The translations under genes and the position numbers were made by a program. DNA of 64,000 nucleotides from Jiella marina (GTDB lineage Bacteria > Pseudomonadota > Alphaproteobacteria > Rhizobiales > Rhizobiaceae), in NCBI RefSeq assembly GCF_024359545.1, contig NZ_JAKQZG010000009.1, forward strand, positions 124,001-188,000, in the 5' to 3' direction. The notes beneath the pieces were generated by a model, which searched no databases, was not told the DNA's origin, and saw only the letters and a list, made by a program, of their open reading frames with translations. The stretch's first letter is position 1; every line of letters starts with the position of its first letter. Shown here one piece after another: positions 19,740-26,338 of this stretch.

Positions 19740-19847
19740 CGACCGCAAGTGGGGGTCGAAAGTGGTCCTCACGTCCTTGTGCGCGGGGCGCCTTTCGCGG
19801 GTGGCCGCACCTTCCATCCGCCTGCCGTGATCTCTATATGTTCCGCC

Positions 19848-22800
19848 ATGGCTTCCCGACCCCGCAAGGCTCCGCGCCGCCCCGCTTCCGCCGATCGCGA
19901 CGACGCATCCGACGACGCCGTTTTCGATCCCTCCGCGCCGCCGCGGCGTGGGCCGTTGAGCGATTTTTCCGACGCGTCCGAGCGCGCCGACGAGCCGAGC
20001 GGATTCGAAGAGGCCCCGCAGGCGGGCTTCGATTCGGGCGAGGCGTTTTCCGGGCCGATTTCTGGCTGGGCCGACGAGATCGCGAAGAACGCCGAGACCC
20101 GGGCCGAGCGGACGGCCGATGCAGAGCAGGCGCCCGAAAAAGCGGCCGGGAAGAAGCCGAAATCGGCGCGGGGCGAGACGCAGAAGACCGGGCAAAAGCC
20201 GGGTAAGACTTCGCGCGGCACGTCGATGGGCGGCACCAACGACCCGAAGAAGCGCGCCGCCGCCGGACTCAATCCCGTCGCCGGCATGGATGTCAGCCTG
20301 GAGGACGCCAAGAGCCTGCCGGAAGGCGGCGTCACCGCGACGGTGGAGGCGCTGACCAAGCTGATCTCCGAGGGCAACCCGCTGATCAAGAATGGCGAGG
20401 TCTGGCTGCCGCACCGGCCGGCCCGGCCCAACAAGTCGGAAGGCGGCGTCGCCTTCGAGATCGCCTCGGACTATACGCCCATGGGCGACCAGCCGACCGC
20501 GATCGCCGATCTCGTCTCCGGCATTTCCGATCACGACAAGACCCAGACGCTGCTCGGCGTGACCGGCTCGGGCAAGACCTTCACCGTCGCCAATGTCATC
20601 GAGAAGACCCAGCGTCCGGCGCTGGTGCTGGCGCCCAACAAGACGCTGGCGGCGCAGCTCTATGGCGAGTTCAAGAGCTTCTTCCCGAACAACGCCGTCG
20701 AGTATTTCGTCTCCTATTACGACTACTACCAGCCCGAAGCCTACGTCCCGCGTTCGGACACCTATATCGAGAAGGAATCCTCGATCAACGAGCAGATCGA
20801 CCGGATGCGCCATGCGGCGACCCGCGCGCTGCTCGAGCGCGACGACGTGATCATCGTCGCCTCGGTCTCCTGCATCTACGGTATCGGCTCGGTCGAGACC
20901 TATACGGCGATGACGTTCCAGATGAGTGTGGGCGACCGGCTGGACCAGCGCCAGCTTCTGGCCGATCTCGTCGCCCAGCAATACAAGCGCCGCGACATGG
21001 ACTTCCAGCGCGGCTCCTTCCGCGTGCGCGGCGACACGATCGAGATCTTCCCCGCCCACCTGGAGGATCGCGCCTGGCGCATCTCCATGTTCGGCGACGA
21101 GATCGAGGCGATCCAGGAGTTCGACCCGCTCACCGGCCAGAAGACCGACAATCTGAAGTCGGTGAAGATCTACGCCAATTCCCACTATGTCACCCCGCGC
21201 CCGACGCTCAATCAGGCCGTGAAGCAGATCCGCGAGGAGCTGAAGCACCGGCTGGTCGAGCTGGAAAAGGCCGGGCGGCTGCTCGAAGCCCAGCGGCTGG
21301 AGCAGCGCACGCGCTTCGACATCGAGATGATCGAGGCGACGGGCTCCTGCCCCGGCATCGAGAACTATTCGCGCTATCTCACCGGCCGCGCCCCCGGCCA
21401 CCCGCCGCCGACCCTGTTCGAATATCTCCCCGACAACGCGCTGGTCTTCATCGACGAGAGCCACGTCACCGTGCCGCAGATCGGCGCCATGTATCGCGGC
21501 GACTTCCGCCGCAAGGCGACGCTGGCCGAATATGGCTTCCGCCTGCCCTCCTGCATGGACAACCGACCCTTGCGTTTCGAGGAATGGGACGCGATGCGGC
21601 CGCAGACCGTGGCGGTCTCGGCGACGCCCGGGTCATGGGAGCTGGAGGAATCCGGCGGTGTCTTCGCCGAACAGGTGATCCGCCCGACGGGGCTCACCGA
21701 CCCGCCCGTCGAGGTGCGCCCGGCGCGCTCGCAGGTCGACGATCTTCTCGGCGAGATCCGCGAGACGGTGGAGCGCGGCTACCGCGTCCTCTGCACGGTG
21801 CTGACCAAGCGCATGGCCGAGGACCTCACCGAATATCTGCACGAACAGGGCATCCGGGTGCGCTACATGCATTCGGACATCGACACGCTGGAGCGCATCG
21901 AGATCATCCGCGATCTGCGCCTCGGCGCCTTCGACGTCTTGGTCGGCATCAACCTGCTGCGCGAGGGTCTCGACATTCCCGAATGCGGGCTCGTCGCCAT
22001 TCTCGACGCTGACAAGGAAGGGTTTCTGCGCTCGGAGACCTCGCTGGTCCAGACGATCGGCCGCGCGGCGCGAAACGTCGACGGCAAGGTGATCCTCTAT
22101 GCCGACCACGTCACCGGCTCGATGGCGCGGGCGATGGCCGAGACCAATCGCCGGCGCGAGAAGCAGGAAGCCTACAATGCCGAGCACGGCATCACCCCAG
22201 CGAGCGTGAAGGCGAAGATCGCCGATATTCTCGACAGCTATTACGAGAAGGACCATGTGCGCATCGACGCCGGCCCGGCCGCCAAGGAAGGCGAACTCGT
22301 CGGCAACAATTTGCGCGCCCATATCGAGCATCTGGAAAAGCAGATGCGCGAGGCGGCCGCCGATCTCGACTTCGAAACCGCCGCCCGCCTGCGCGACGAG
22401 ATCAAGAAGCTCAACGCCAAGGAGCTGGAATTCGGCGGTTCGGGCCCGGGCTCCGGCCGCCGCAAGGGCGGCGCGAAGAACGCCGTCGAGGAAGCCGACC
22501 CGATGGCCGCCGCCGTCGAGCTGGAGGAATCCGTCATGGGCCCCTCCACCGGCCGCACCAAGCACGGCAAGAAAGCCAAGCGCGACCGCGCCCCCCAGGG
22601 CGACGAGCGCTTCGGCCCGCGCGGCGAAGTCCTCAAGGCCCCCGGCTCCGGCGCCGTCAGCGCCCCCGCCTCCCTCTTCCGCAAACCCAGCCTCGACGAC
22701 ATGGGCCCCGGCACCGACACGGCGGTCCCCGCCGGCAAGGGCACCGCTTCCCCTCATCCTGAGGAGCCCGGAACGGGCCTCGAAGGGCGAGGGGAAGCCC

Positions 22801-23099
22801 CCCGCTCCTATTTCCGCAAGAACACCCTCGACGAAATGACTGTCGGCCGCACGGAAAAGCCCACCGGCAAGACCCCACCCAAGAAGCCCGACACACCCAC
22901 GAAGACACAGCCAGTCTCCCCCCGTGAGGGGGAGATGTCCGGCAGGACAGAGGGTGGCGCGAAGGGTCCGGCGGCAGACGGCAAGGACGACTCCCCCGCC
23001 CCGATCAGGCGCGAACGCATCGGGCGCGGGTCGTATGAGGATGCGGGGGATCAGAAGCGCAAGCGGCGACCGACGAAGACGGGGCGGCCGGGGCGGTAA
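19848..23099 (+). CDS. uvrB: Excinuclease ABC subunit B (UvrB), extended
   Basis: The damage-verification helicase of nucleotide excision repair, acting with UvrA and UvrC. It has 1083 residues against roughly 670-700 in E. coli. A disordered N-terminal extension ends in [20 protein letters not shown], typical of Rhizobiales. Walker A is GVTGSGKT (237-244), the beta-hairpin region has [19 protein letters not shown], and motifs V-VI are [13 protein letters not shown] and QTIGRAARN. The C-terminal UVR helix pair is near residues 818-858. Beyond it is a low-complexity tail that includes two in-frame dispersed repeats (listed separately). The ATG at 19848 is chosen over one at 19749 because the intervening part has no counterpart in the family. 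Confidence 0.96.
22750..22794 (+). repeat. Palindromic repeat element inside uvrB (first)
   Basis: The segment CCCCTCATCCTGAGGAGCCC through GGGCGAGGGG forms an imperfect palindrome of the kind found between genes in many Rhizobiales (the CCTCAT...GAGG type). Here it lies in frame inside the uvrB tail and is read as about fifteen residues including [17 protein letters not shown]. No stop codon or frameshift results. The element class is recognised from memory; its copy number in this genome cannot be seen. Confidence 0.65.
22915..22960 (+). repeat. Palindromic repeat element inside uvrB (second)
   Basis: The segment begins TCTCCCCCCGTGAGGGGGAG and continues ATGTCCGGCAGGACAGAGGG. It matches the familiar rhizobial intergenic repeat whose arms read CTCCCCC...GGGGGAG. 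It is in frame in uvrB and adds residues such as [17 protein letters not shown]. Its sequence is unrelated to the element about 120 bases upstream, so the tail has received two separate insertions. Confidence 0.7.
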
Positions 23100-23118
23100 C
23101 CATAAACTCTAACTCAGA

Positions 23119-24150
23119 TCACGTCGGCTTTAACGGCTTGTAGATAAGGCGCTCAAAGATCCCGCGTACAGTCCACCTTTCCTCTTCTCCGAGGGCAGAT
23201 GCAGCTCCGTGCATTTCCAACGGTGTCTTCTTCGCCATGCTACGAGCTTCGCCGATGAACTCAGCCCACAGTAATTGCATTTTCTCTCTATTGCAGAAAA
23301 ACATCTCCGCGGACGGATTAGCCTCATTCGAAATCCCCGCTGATTCGGTGTACATCAAAATCCCAGGAACGTCATAATCAGAGTAATTTTCACGTGTCCA
23401 TTGAAGATGTTGAAACGCTTGCCCGACCTCCTCTTGATTAAGATTATTATTCTTTTTATCCGTCTTAAGCTCAAATGGAATAACAAGCTTTTTATGATGA
23501 TCAATCCAGATATTATCCGGCCCGTCGTGAACGTCGGTGCATGGCCGCCTGGAATCAAAGCCTAGGACGCTTCCAATATGGCGAACAGCCTCTTCCGCGA
23601 CTTTGTGCGAACAGTCCTGAAATGCTCCTTTTGAGCGATCTTCAATATTGTTTAATCGGCGATTGATCTGCGGTATCTTTCCAGTGCAAATTGCACGAAG
23701 ACCTTCCTCAACTATCGACCGAGGGGGCTTCGGTACCTCTGATTCTCCACTGTCTTGCCGCGGCAGAGGAAGCCCGCCACCGAGTCGGTTTCGCGCTTCA
23801 TCAAACCATCCATGCATATTCTCGAAGTCACCACAATTGCAGTATGCCTGTCCAATACATAGCGCATACCACCCAGCCAGCCTAGGATTTTCAGTCCGGA
23901 CCTTCTCAATTACACCAACTAGTTCGTCGGCAGCACCATTTTGATCACCGTGCCACAGCTTCGTGATAAATTTGATTTCGTGCTTTGCCAATTGATCATC
24001 AAGTCTTGCATCTGCTTCTCGCTCTTGAATTCTTTTTTCGTCAATTGGATTGAGGCCAATTTGCGCCGTATAGTAGTCAACCCAGCCTGCTTCTCGCTCA
24101 ATAATCTGATTAATAATACTTTTCACCGTATCGAGTTTTGGATCTCCCAA
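23119..24150 (-). CDS. PD-(D/E)XK nuclease-like protein with TPR-like N-terminus
   Basis: A protein of about 343 residues from an AT-rich island. The N-terminal half is helical and TPR-like (residues 60-122, including GWYALCIGQAYCNCGDFENM). The C-terminal half carries a nuclease-type motif: helix KVAEEAVRHIGSVLG, then Gly-Pro-Asp (Asp212), a 14-residue strand-turn-strand, and Glu227-Leu-Lys229, followed by a Gln-rich helix (QEEVGQAFQHLQ). This is the standard order of PD-(D/E)XK nucleases. There is no ATG at the N-terminus; TTG at 24150 is the best start, with a weak AGGAAG 14 bases before it. It is in the same frame as the upstream helicase, separated by one TAG and six sense codons, so it may be the C-terminal part of a fused protein. 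Confidence 0.65.
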   Translation of the reverse strand: MGDPKLDTVKSIINQIIEREAGWVDYYTAQIGLNPIDEKRIQEREADARLDDQLAKHEIKFITKLWHGDQNGAADELVGVIEKVRTENPRLAGWYALCIGQAYCNCGDFENMHGWFDEARNRLGGGLPLPRQDSGESEVPKPPRSIVEEGLRAICTGKIPQINRRLNNIEDRSKGAFQDCSHKVAEEAVRHIGSVLGFDSRRPCTDVHDGPDNIWIDHHKKLVIPFELKTDKKNNNLNQEEVGQAFQHLQWTRENYSDYDVPGILMYTESAGISNEANPSAEMFFCNREKMQLLWAEFIGEARSMAKKTPLEMHGAASALGEEERWTVRGIFERLIYKPLKPT

Positions 24151-24168
24151 TTGATCACAAAATTCTTC

Positions 24169-25647
24169 CTAGAGACGAATTTGCTCTTGCAGCACTCGCG
24201 GGAAATAAGCTTGATTAGCAGGATTCCGCAGCCAATTTTCAACATCCGTTGATGCTATAATATATATTCCATAATCGTTTTTCCCGCGATTTATTCTCCC
24301 AAATAATTGTGTAATTCGGTTCGCAACTCGAGGAAAGAATGCTTGGTCTAAGTGAACTTTGTCAAATTGGTATCGCTCAAACTGGGACGATCCAACTGGC
24401 AAGCCATCAACGATCATCAACCTGCACTCATCATCGGGGAGGTCGATACCATCATAGCGACCAAGCAAGAGAAACGAACCATTTGCAGCGTGCCGAAATT
24501 TATCTAGTTCGACGGAAAAAGACTTTGCCCCTTGCGGCGGGATCGCAACGTCCTCCCAATTCGTGGCTTCCCGATCACTAGGTACCGCGATGAGCACCTT
24601 CTGTTCTTCCGATATAGAATTGATGCTCGCTGCGTCAGAAGCTATCTGCCCCAAAGCGGATCCAAACAATAGGACCCGTTCGCCAAGCCCGGCATCGACA
24701 TCAGGTTCAATCACGTGCGGAGCCCGCCCGAACGCACGAGTTATATCTCCCTTCGATTGAACAGTCGCAGAGAGATACACTCGCGGCACATTGTTGTCTT
24801 TAAATGCTCCCACTTCCAAAGCGGGAAGAAACGCTGGTGTTATTTCAACCAGACGCCTACTTATGGTTAGAACACATGAACCAAAATGACCGCGCAAATA
24901 ATCAAAGGGTAATTGCAACGAAATATCGCTGTCTTTTATTGCTTCAATAAGCGATTCAATTTTATTTCCACGCGCGTATAACTCTGTTGGAGGGCAAATC
25001 AATATACCTGGCGATCCAACTTCCGAAAATACGCTGTCGAAATTGTATCTTTTGCCTATTTCTTCGTAGGCGTCGCGGACTTCCCTTGCAATGGCATTGA
25101 AAGTCTCTTCATAATCCTTTTTTGCAACGCGCAATGTAAAAGAATCGCGCACAAGCCTTTCGCCGACATGCGCGTCATCAAGAACTAAGGCGCCCGGGGC
25201 GGCCTGGCCTCGGAATTTGTTTCTCGTATTCAACAGTGCTTGGTACGTGGTAATACAGAATGATTTCCCTTGTGCAAAATTTTGGTCAGAGAATTGTGAT
25301 TCAAAATACGTTGTCGGCCGTATACCGACGCCATTTGCTTCCTTTATGGTCTGATGTATCAAATCAATCGTGGGGCACGCATATACAACGTTTCGGATAC
25401 CCTGGTTCATGAAGCTTTGTGCGATAAGAACACCAACAAGCGTTTTTCCCGCACCCGTGTACATCGAAATGAGAGTGTTTCTGGAGGGGTCCTCGTACCA
25501 CTTGTCGAGAGCCTGCGCCTGCCCTTGCCACAACTCTTTGATCTTGGCCTTGCCCGAAGGGCGGCTACGAAAAATTTCGCGCGGATGAGTTGCCTTTTCG
25601 CCTTTCTTTGGTTTTTTCAGTCCACCAAAGTCGAAACCATTGCTCAT
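24169..25647 (-). CDS. Superfamily 2 helicase, DDAH-box, XPD/DinG-like motifs
   Basis: A 492-residue ATP-dependent nucleic-acid helicase. The order of motifs is Q-like WQGQAQALDKW (40-50), Walker A TGAGKT (64-69), Walker B/motif II Asp157-Asp-Ala-His160 in LVLDDAHVGE, motif III SAT (293-295), motif V GRYDGIDLPDDECRLMIVDG (396-415), and motif VI QLFGRINRG (447-455). Motif V resembles XPD/DinG helicases, but no cluster of four cysteines for an iron-sulfur centre is present. It pairs with a nuclease-like protein immediately downstream. Codon use and base composition are visibly AT-richer than the neighbours, suggesting horizontal transfer. A role in phage or plasmid defence is inferred from this pairing. 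Confidence 0.8.
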   Translation of the reverse strand: MSNGFDFGGLKKPKKGEKATHPREIFRSRPSGKAKIKELWQGQAQALDKWYEDPSRNTLISMYTGAGKTLVGVLIAQSFMNQGIRNVVYACPTIDLIHQTIKEANGVGIRPTTYFESQFSDQNFAQGKSFCITTYQALLNTRNKFRGQAAPGALVLDDAHVGERLVRDSFTLRVAKKDYEETFNAIAREVRDAYEEIGKRYNFDSVFSEVGSPGILICPPTELYARGNKIESLIEAIKDSDISLQLPFDYLRGHFGSCVLTISRRLVEITPAFLPALEVGAFKDNNVPRVYLSATVQSKGDITRAFGRAPHVIEPDVDAGLGERVLLFGSALGQIASDAASINSISEEQKVLIAVPSDREATNWEDVAIPPQGAKSFSVELDKFRHAANGSFLLLGRYDGIDLPDDECRLMIVDGLPVGSSQFERYQFDKVHLDQAFFPRVANRITQLFGRINRGKNDYGIYIIASTDVENWLRNPANQAYFPRVLQEQIRL

Positions 25648-25879
25648 TCAATAATTGCCCCATTAACGAATCGATTGCGCGTTCGACCTAAACCTGCTTG
25701 TTGGTAGCGGATTTTGCAAGATATAACCTTAAATAGCAGACTGAGGCTTGTTGTTCGTTAGCAATGGGTCGCTTTCATCCCTGGTTAAAAATGCAAAGCC
25801 ATTCTCAGAGCGGACGCCGGTTCAAACCCGGGTCTCGTGCGGTAGGTTAAATCATTTACCCTGCCAACGCAGCCGAACA

Positions 25880-25982
25880 GAACTAGTTGGAAATTTGGGA
25901 CTCCGACTTAGGCCCGTTCGGTAGCTCGCTTCTAGTCGTATTCGATTGCGACTAAGGGGCCGGGCATCAGAAGCCCTTTTTT
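25880..25982 (+). ncRNA. Candidate small RNA with intrinsic terminator
   Basis: Two adjacent hairpins point to a short structured transcript. The first pairs TAGTCGTA (25933-25940) with TGCGACTA (25947-25954) around a six-base loop. The second, the terminator, pairs AAGGGGC (25954-25960) with GCCCTTT (25973-25979). No gene ends just upstream on this strand, so the terminator needs another explanation. The 5' end is a guess, and no known RNA family is recognised. Confidence 0.35.
25954..25982 (+). terminator. Rho-independent terminator without an upstream gene
   Basis: The stem AAGGGGC / GCCCTTT (one G-T pair) is followed by six T (25977-25982). It is oriented to stop plus-strand transcription. 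The nearest plus-strand coding gene upstream is uvrB, nearly 3 kb away. Confidence 0.55.
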
Positions 25983-26078
25983 GTTGAAGCGGTTATGTTG
26001 TTCGCTGGGTTCATGCAGACGGTCGCACAAGAAGGGATTACGTGGCGCTGGGCTGTGAATATCCATCATACCACCGCC

Positions 26079-26109
26079 GTCATCCCGGCCTTGAGCCGGG
26101 ATCCATGCC
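26079..26109 (+). repeat. REP-like palindrome, copy A
   Basis: A 31-base element starting GTCATCCCGGCC and ending GGGATCCATGCC, itself partly palindromic. Its reverse complement recurs at 26184-26214 with a single mismatch, giving a head-to-head pair separated by 74 bases. Paired elements of this GTCATCC...GGATC form are common between genes in alphaproteobacteria. Confidence 0.7.
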
Positions 26110-26183
26110 TCGCCGGTGACGGAGCAGTCCGGCGCAGGATGGGGTGCGGTGACTCGGCACCGTCGAGATGCGAAATCGTTCGT

Positions 26184-26214
26184 GGCATGGATCCCGGCTC
26201 AAGTCCGGGATGAC
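26184..26214 (-). repeat. REP-like palindrome, copy B (inverted)
   Basis: Inverted partner of the element at 26079-26109, identical at 30 of 31 positions. The flanks (GAGATGCGAAATCGTTCG before, ATCATCG after) resemble those of the copy at 26302-26338, so the repeated unit is longer than the palindrome alone, about 60-65 bases. Confidence 0.7.
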
Positions 26215-26301
26215 GATCATCGGGGGTGGCGGCGCCCTTTCATCAAGAGCAGTGGGGGATGTGTGGCGGGGGTTCGGCCGCCGAGACGCGAAAACGTCTG
26301 A

Positions 26302-26338
26302 GGCATGGATCCCCGACCCTGCGGGTCGAGGATGACGA
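26302..26338 (-). repeat. REP-like palindrome, diverged copy C
   Basis: Begins GGCATGGATCC like copy B, but its central stem reads CCCGACCCTGCGGGTCG. It ends GAGGATGAC. The upstream flank GAGACGCGAAAACGTCTG parallels that of copy B. The stem has changed on both arms together, which suggests selection to keep the hairpin. Confidence 0.6.

Follow-up and report, generated by a model that had tools for sequence, protein, structure and literature searches.

The closest described relative of the locus is Hna of Sinorhizobium meliloti, named for helicase-nuclease abortive infection, a single-protein system whose cryo-EM structures have been published (PDB 9YHN, 9YKJ, 10UJ; PMC13381803). In the accessible part of that report it is characterized as an 845-residue 3'-5' ssDNA exonuclease with SF2 domains, which ATP keeps restrained as a dimer until a phage SSB releases it, and a resemblance to ExoDinG is remarked upon. 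According to the accessible sections of a further report, homologues of hna occur widely and have undergone extensive horizontal transfer (PMC12445080). Hna of S. meliloti 1021 itself belongs to PDC-S28, matching the PADLOC sister model PDLC04986 with an E of 0 and PDLC04987 with 5.3e-120; as far as the accessible text of PMC11811056 indicates, PDC-S28 is counted among the unpublished candidates of Payne et al. Another system in which a helicase and a nuclease act against phage is Hachiman (HamAB).

The locus considered here lies in the window, i.e. the complete stretch of 64,000 nucleotides of Jiella marina DNA that was analysed. Quite probably, it represents an anti-phage gene of Hna type (PDLC04987 subfamily) that was acquired by horizontal transfer, is located behind uvrB at a chromosomal spot used repeatedly in Rhizobiaceae and is interrupted by a TAG between its ATPase and nuclease parts. 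The features are as follows (L and G numbers denote loci and genomes of the comparison):

23100..26000 (edges approximate), no strand: island of foreign cargo immediately behind uvrB, AT-rich by composition; a similar patch lies behind uvrB in 13 of 38 sampled Rhizobiaceae genomes.
23119..25647, minus strand: hna-family gene (PDC-S28, model PDLC04987) of 842 codons before the final stop, with one in-frame TAG inside; single frame, whole-frame match to PDLC04987 3-842 with 1034.7 bits.
24169..25647, minus strand: N-terminal part, SF2 (DinG/XPD-like) ATPase of 492 aa; PDLC04987 3-491 (E 3.5e-209), ResIII and Helicase_C_2, Hna (E 2.7e-38).
24169..24171, minus strand: in-frame TAG, codon 493; a sense codon at this point in intact relatives.
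23119..24150, minus strand: C-terminal part, helical stretch and PD-(D/E)XK nuclease, 343 aa if the start is TTG 24150; PDLC04987 503-842 (E 3.7e-94), Foldseek to the Hna monomer (3.2e-10) and dimer (4.8e-6).
19749..23099, plus strand: uvrB (Pfam UvrB domains), conserved neighbour of the insertion and convergent to the gene in the island; the true start may be further in.

The original prediction had read this stretch as two genes of a probable helicase-nuclease defence system and as a candidate for an undescribed one. Its AT-rich, foreign-looking composition was confirmed by a G+C of 43-50% in the 500-base windows starting from 23000 to 25500, compared to 62-71% in the flanking windows (starts up to 22500 and from 26000 on), and both open reading frames, 24169-25647(-) and 23119-24150(-), do exist. 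However, they share one reading frame, with one TAG and six sense codons between them and TTG 24150 as codon 500, and both were assigned to the same PADLOC model, the first to positions 3-491 and the second to positions 503-842 of 846. Among solved structures, the first ORF has one strong relative with an E of 2.7e-38, which the second ORF reaches weakly (2.6e-5); the entries are Hna according to Foldseek. The domain order of Hna / PDC-S28, an N-terminal SF2 ATPase followed by a C-terminal PD-(D/E)XK nuclease, was likewise found in the window locus. The close relatives, which are 58-63% identical, are single uninterrupted genes, and the single ORFs of L010 (864 aa), L011 (840 aa), L014 and L051-L053 run straight through the point of the stop. 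These relatives contradict a conserved two-gene layout. The predicted defence gene stands by its match to the PDC-S28 / Hna family, but the system is not an undescribed one, since both ORFs belong to a family that includes the published Hna of S. meliloti. While two ORFs carrying the predicted motifs would suit a new two-gene system, the end-to-end match to a known single-protein family, the shared frame and the single-ORF relatives make this reading highly improbable. Since the window copy lacks the single uninterrupted polypeptide of approximately 845 residues that the six relatives comprise (TAG at codon 493), it was filed as an interrupted copy of Hna / PDC-S28 and not as a working member.

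The protein motifs agree with what had been predicted for both halves. For the ATPase part, a Walker A motif TGAGKT (residue 64), DDAH (157), SAT (293), DGIDLPD (399) and GRINRG (450) were determined; the part is a DinG/XPD-like SF2 helicase. Its five cysteines are scattered (91, 131, 218, 258, 408), and a four-cysteine iron-sulfur cluster was not found in this part. Pfam assigned generic helicase domains (ResIII, Helicase_C_2) to the ATPase part and nothing to the nuclease part. The latter carries Asp212 and Glu227-x-Lys229, and when this half was modelled with AlphaFold2 (5 sequences, pLDDT 78.6), residues 182-286 formed the helix-strand-strand-strand-helix-strand order expected of a PD-(D/E)XK core, located behind a helical part. 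A nuclease core is thus predicted in the 343-residue protein, and with this model the Hna monomer (3.2e-10) and the Hna dimer (4.8e-6) were the only two Foldseek hits below 0.001, the monomer being the first. Of the TPR-like N-terminus proposed for the second ORF, the helical part was recovered, whereas the likeness to TPR is weak (2avp, 73 columns, Foldseek E of 0.083). For the intact protein of Nitratireductor luteus, the AlphaFold2 model was poor (pLDDT 51.9).

Further families were considered for the assignment. A DinG or DinG-related protein was rejected with 21.9 bits for NCBIfam dinG_rel at a cut-off of 547.7 and 9.8 bits for DinG at a cut-off of 789, and Cas3-type matches were partial or below the cut-off. 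Based on the PADLOC models, the locus does not belong to Hachiman with its HamA nuclease and HamB helicase families: the HamB models align to residues 31-103 alone (best E 2.2e-4), and the nuclease half gave no match to a HamA model up to an E of 1.

Compared to Hna of S. meliloti, as far as the accessible part of PMC13381803 describes it, the window copy has a similar length (842 codons versus 845), and both share the domain order, the SF2 motifs, the absence of an Fe-S cluster and the assignment to PDC-S28. The residues P-D...E-x-K of the nuclease are equally spaced in both, and Walker A, DDAH, SAT and motif VI as well as the equivalents of P712, D713, E727 and K729 of Hna are kept in the window copy. 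In contrast, the two are only 25.6% identical over 716 residues, fall into separate clades and differ in their best PDC-S28 model. The in-frame stop and the changed HEL1 residues T30, D31, P34 and R36 also set the window copy apart. These changes extend to its whole clade: the dimer-loop residues T30, D31 and P34 are not retained, and of the ATP-site pair Q39 is kept and R36 is not. In a tree of 30 PDC-S28 members, the window copy was located apart from Hna proper, in a clade of six rows (100/100) whose other genes are intact; this clade also includes N. luteus, a Mesorhizobium MAG, G069 and two plasmid copies. PDLC04987 itself models one protein, of which the window match spans positions 3 to 842 of 846 with the frame broken by the one TAG. 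The N. luteus gene of the Hna subfamily (L010) is 62.5% identical to the window copy and likewise lies directly behind uvrB, but is a single 864-aa ORF co-oriented with uvrB, whereas the window gene is convergent with it.

Two further observations concern other members. On plasmids of Agrobacterium pusense and S. meliloti, a divergent gene annotated as ATP-binding protein, of equal length in both, precedes the close Hna relative (L051:2308-4068, L052:2286-4046); it is a possible partner. In several distant PDC-S28 members (L019, L020, L042-L044, L049), parts of the P-D...E-x-K nuclease signature are missing, so that these proteins, judged by their residues, may not cut DNA.

By analogy with S. 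meliloti Hna, as described in the accessible part of PMC13381803, the intact protein would carry a 3'-5' exonuclease for single-stranded DNA joined to an SF2 ATPase, and ATP would restrain it as a dimer. In this abortive infection, a phage single-strand-binding protein would free the exonuclease, and the infected cell would be lost before phage is made. Since T30, D31, P34 and R36 of HEL1 are changed in the subfamily, the ATP-locked dimer may not hold for it and the control may differ in detail. In the window copy, translation would mostly stop after the ATPase part, resulting in little or no whole protein, so that the defence is probably lost. That both parts are otherwise open and keep their key residues suggests that this loss is recent.

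The origin of the stop was evaluated on the basis of four overlapping surveys of 201, 397, 398 and 394 genomes, each including the window genome. Combined, they comprise 24 distinct places of the family at an E of 1e-30 or better, of which two (G755, G1075) match the first part of the model only. An internal stop is present in two of the 24, at different positions, namely in the window copy and in G108 (TAA near codon 99; L017). Since the stop column of the surveys may count the terminal stop, as in the thrC rows, both stops were verified directly. A copy from Brucella cytisi, found by a separate search, is broken at several points. The stop position of the window copy was found in no relative (1 of 24 family places), and therefore a recent loss is favoured.

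The stop is known from one genome assembly, from which alone a mutation and an assembly error are indistinguishable; the assembly record (99% complete, 41 contigs) says nothing on single bases. Everything else in the gene is intact, as it would be in an ordinary gene of the Hna subfamily with one wrong base in the assembly, but single-base errors are rare in high-quality assemblies and we regard this origin of the stop as distinctly unlikely. Recoding of the TAG was rejected, since no tRNA with a CUA anticodon was found among the 45 tRNA genes (Rfam search, ARAGORN anticodons) and TAG terminates 10 of 42 script-called ORFs in the window (mechanical calling).

The Helicase_C_2 match ends approximately 37 codons before the modelled nuclease part begins its first helix, and the TAG falls into this interval, which amounts to about 4% of the gene. 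Such a position, at which a split would be least harmful, is a mild point for a working split Hna, in which an ATPase and a nuclease polypeptide would act together in an outline like HamB and HamA of Hachiman, the second being made by re-initiation at TTG 24150; the point is weakened because the locus was chosen for its two-protein look. Further points in favour are that both parts are open with intact active sites and that neither evolved at an increased rate, as shown below. However, no other of the 24 family places is divided there, and TTG 24150, located 18 bases downstream of the stop codon, lacks a suitably placed ribosome-binding site: the duplex amounts to -3.8 kcal/mol, with AGGAAG 14 bases away. 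Among the 23 other start-like codons of the ATPase part (mean -1.94), three reach -4.0 or lower by chance, so that the TTG is above average but unexceptional. Altogether, a working split is considered unlikely.

For the relative-rate test, L015, L046, L058 and L059 were used as outside outgroups and L010, L011 or L014 as partners, resulting in 24 rows. With L010 as partner, the counts for window copy/L010 were 20/20, 19/26, 14/23 and 20/25 in the nuclease part and 27/35, 33/29, 26/27 and 27/28 in the ATPase part. None of the 24 rows showed an excess of changes in either part (p of 0.08 to 1), and relaxed selection on one part is thus unsupported by these rows. Another 12 rows with L010, L011 or L014 as the third sequence (some p down to 1.7e-9) were left uncounted, because these belong to the clade of the window copy and are no outgroups. 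In a leave-one-out comparison with the positions invariant in the close clade, the window copy departs at 34 of 280 in the ATPase part and 32 of 164 in the nuclease part, compared to 7 of 253 and 14 of 146 for L010. When 11 members are compared, the departures of the window copy amount to 5 of 118 and 1 of 40 invariant positions, respectively. The higher number of departures is as expected of a lone deep branch and may include a mild relaxation; further decay was not visible in either part. Since the relative rates show no excess, the interruption is either recent or tolerated. Most likely, the window copy was recently interrupted, and it is probably inactive.

Regarding the distribution of the family, copies at an E of 1e-30 were determined in 10 of 394 genomes of the Rhizobiaceae, 8 of 397 of the order and 6 of 398 of the phylum, the window genome being counted each time. 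Only one of nine other members of the genus carries any copy, which is distant (approximately 30% identical). Plasmid-borne relatives of the window gene exist; a search of viral contigs for the window protein gave no hit, and the phage records contained one distant match (23% identical). A housekeeping role as a DinG/ExoDinG-like repair helicase-exonuclease could be suggested by the shared SF2 motifs, the weak match to NCBIfam dinG_rel (E 4.3e-5, 21.9 bits, cut-off 547.7) and the likeness of Hna to ExoDinG noted in the accessible part of PMC13381803. Against this stand the patchy presence, the foreign composition and the plasmid-borne relatives, which render such a role hardly credible. Housekeeping homologues with vertical inheritance were looked for in the four surveys and not found.

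The island had been placed between uvrB and a lipoprotein gene. The first neighbour is indeed uvrB; the second is a 182-aa ORF across approximately 0.8 kb, for which no Pfam match was obtained at 1e-5. This ORF and thrC are kept as a pair in all 10 genus members searched, including the window genome. In the nine other members, uvrB was not found within the approximately 10 kb around this pair, and no gene common to all nine was found behind uvrB, so that no empty site can be demonstrated. Ten neighbouring ORFs scanned with PADLOC showed no match at 1e-5; the locus is therefore not a classical defence island. Convincing direct repeats flanking the island were not found, and scans for promoters and terminators around the locus gave signals near background. 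Just past the island, at 26078-26215, an inverted repeat of 35 nt was observed (94% complementary, arms 68 nt apart, partial third copy at 26300-26313), which looks like a REP-type element. An Rfam match of the palindrome 26073-26220 to a plant miRNA family was under the gathering score and was taken as chance.

The position behind uvrB is not restricted to the window. Across 37 loci with Hna-family genes, most of them with a flank of 1.5 kb only, the gene was found directly after uvrB in three genomes, namely in the window genome, in N. luteus (same direction) and in G108 (convergent, 36% identical; L148). A stop is present in two of these three copies. The site was further evaluated in 40 of the 97 Rhizobiaceae genomes with uvrB, using 9 kb on each side and the thrC flanks of the same 40 genomes as control. 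These genomes were the first in table order, i.e. those with the UvrB most like that of the window; the window genome and five genomes with uvrB less than 8 kb from the contig start were left out, and G098 and G108 are found further down the table, outside the sample. Cargo was counted where the G+C of a 1-kb stretch within 3 kb of the flank lay under the local median by 0.15 or more.

AT-rich cargo was determined after uvrB in 13 of 38 genomes (two dropped due to a short contig), compared to 2 of 40 before uvrB and 0 of 39 both before and after thrC (one dropped each). For the pooled controls (2/118) this corresponds to a Fisher p of 1.3e-7, which is a guide only, since the genomes are related and the measure was fixed with the outcome of a first look already known. 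With a threshold of 0.12 the amounts were 13/38 and 5/118, with 0.18 they were 11/38 and 1/118, and the first look, based on another measure, had given 14/37 after and 4/37 before uvrB. Foreign cargo is thus in excess after uvrB. The AT-rich loci behind uvrB comprise window positions 23100-26000, L010, L148 (G108), L154-L158, L162, L166, L169, L171, L172, L181, L186 and L188.

PADLOC was run on all 20 low-G+C ORFs within 5 kb after uvrB (15 of the 40 genomes) and on one more distant ORF. Of the 20, eight ORFs in seven genomes gave a match with an E of 1e-15 or better, and six of the 13 genomes with an AT-rich flank are among these seven. The matched cargoes include a retron III-A pair (L166), a dCTP deaminase (L169), an NsnA/GmrSD-like (L172) and an RmrA/CapP-like gene (L188), a gene with a part-length match to PDC-S33 (L186) and, at a distance of 2.4 kb, a methyltransferase (L160). 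At L155:13075-15168, AriA and AriB of PARIS are joined in one gene of 697 aa, which matches the AriAB model with an E of 1.4e-197. One more genome with an AT-rich flank carries a cargo with a NACHT domain (L171, Pfam). No PADLOC match at 1e-5 was obtained for L154:12357-14318, L157:12157-13605, L158:7380-7865, L162:12465-13574 and L181:6124-7885, which are candidates for undescribed defence genes. An integrase was not found in the ten cargo ORFs scanned with Pfam. Before uvrB, eight low-G+C ORFs were present in five of the 40 genomes, of which four, in three genomes (L158, L166, L185), match PADLOC at 1e-15 or better. Since low-G+C ORFs upstream also match defence models, the excess after uvrB concerns foreign cargo, and a greater share of defence genes in it than in other islands does not follow.

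While Hna is a known system, the flank of uvrB is possibly a new landing site: the paper listings searched, with few subscription papers among them, did not reveal a defence hotspot at uvrB described for Rhizobiaceae. Tentatively, and with slightly less than an even chance, the 3' flank of uvrB can be regarded as a dedicated landing site of the Rhizobiaceae, at which compact cargoes of one or two genes, many of them anti-phage, are exchanged. The cargoes unmatched by PADLOC would then be candidate undescribed defence genes and the window Hna one decaying cargo.

Altogether, the reading as two genes is wrong, and with it a false lead towards a two-gene defence system is removed and explained. 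The locus points to a sister subfamily of Hna, in which the catalytic sites are kept and the residues reported for the ATP-locked dimer are changed. Accordingly, the generality of the published control can be tested on intact relatives, for example that of Nitratireductor luteus. The part worth following is the landing site at uvrB. If it holds up, the flank of uvrB would offer a simple handle for finding defence genes in Rhizobiaceae, namely by looking at the cargo behind one conserved gene.
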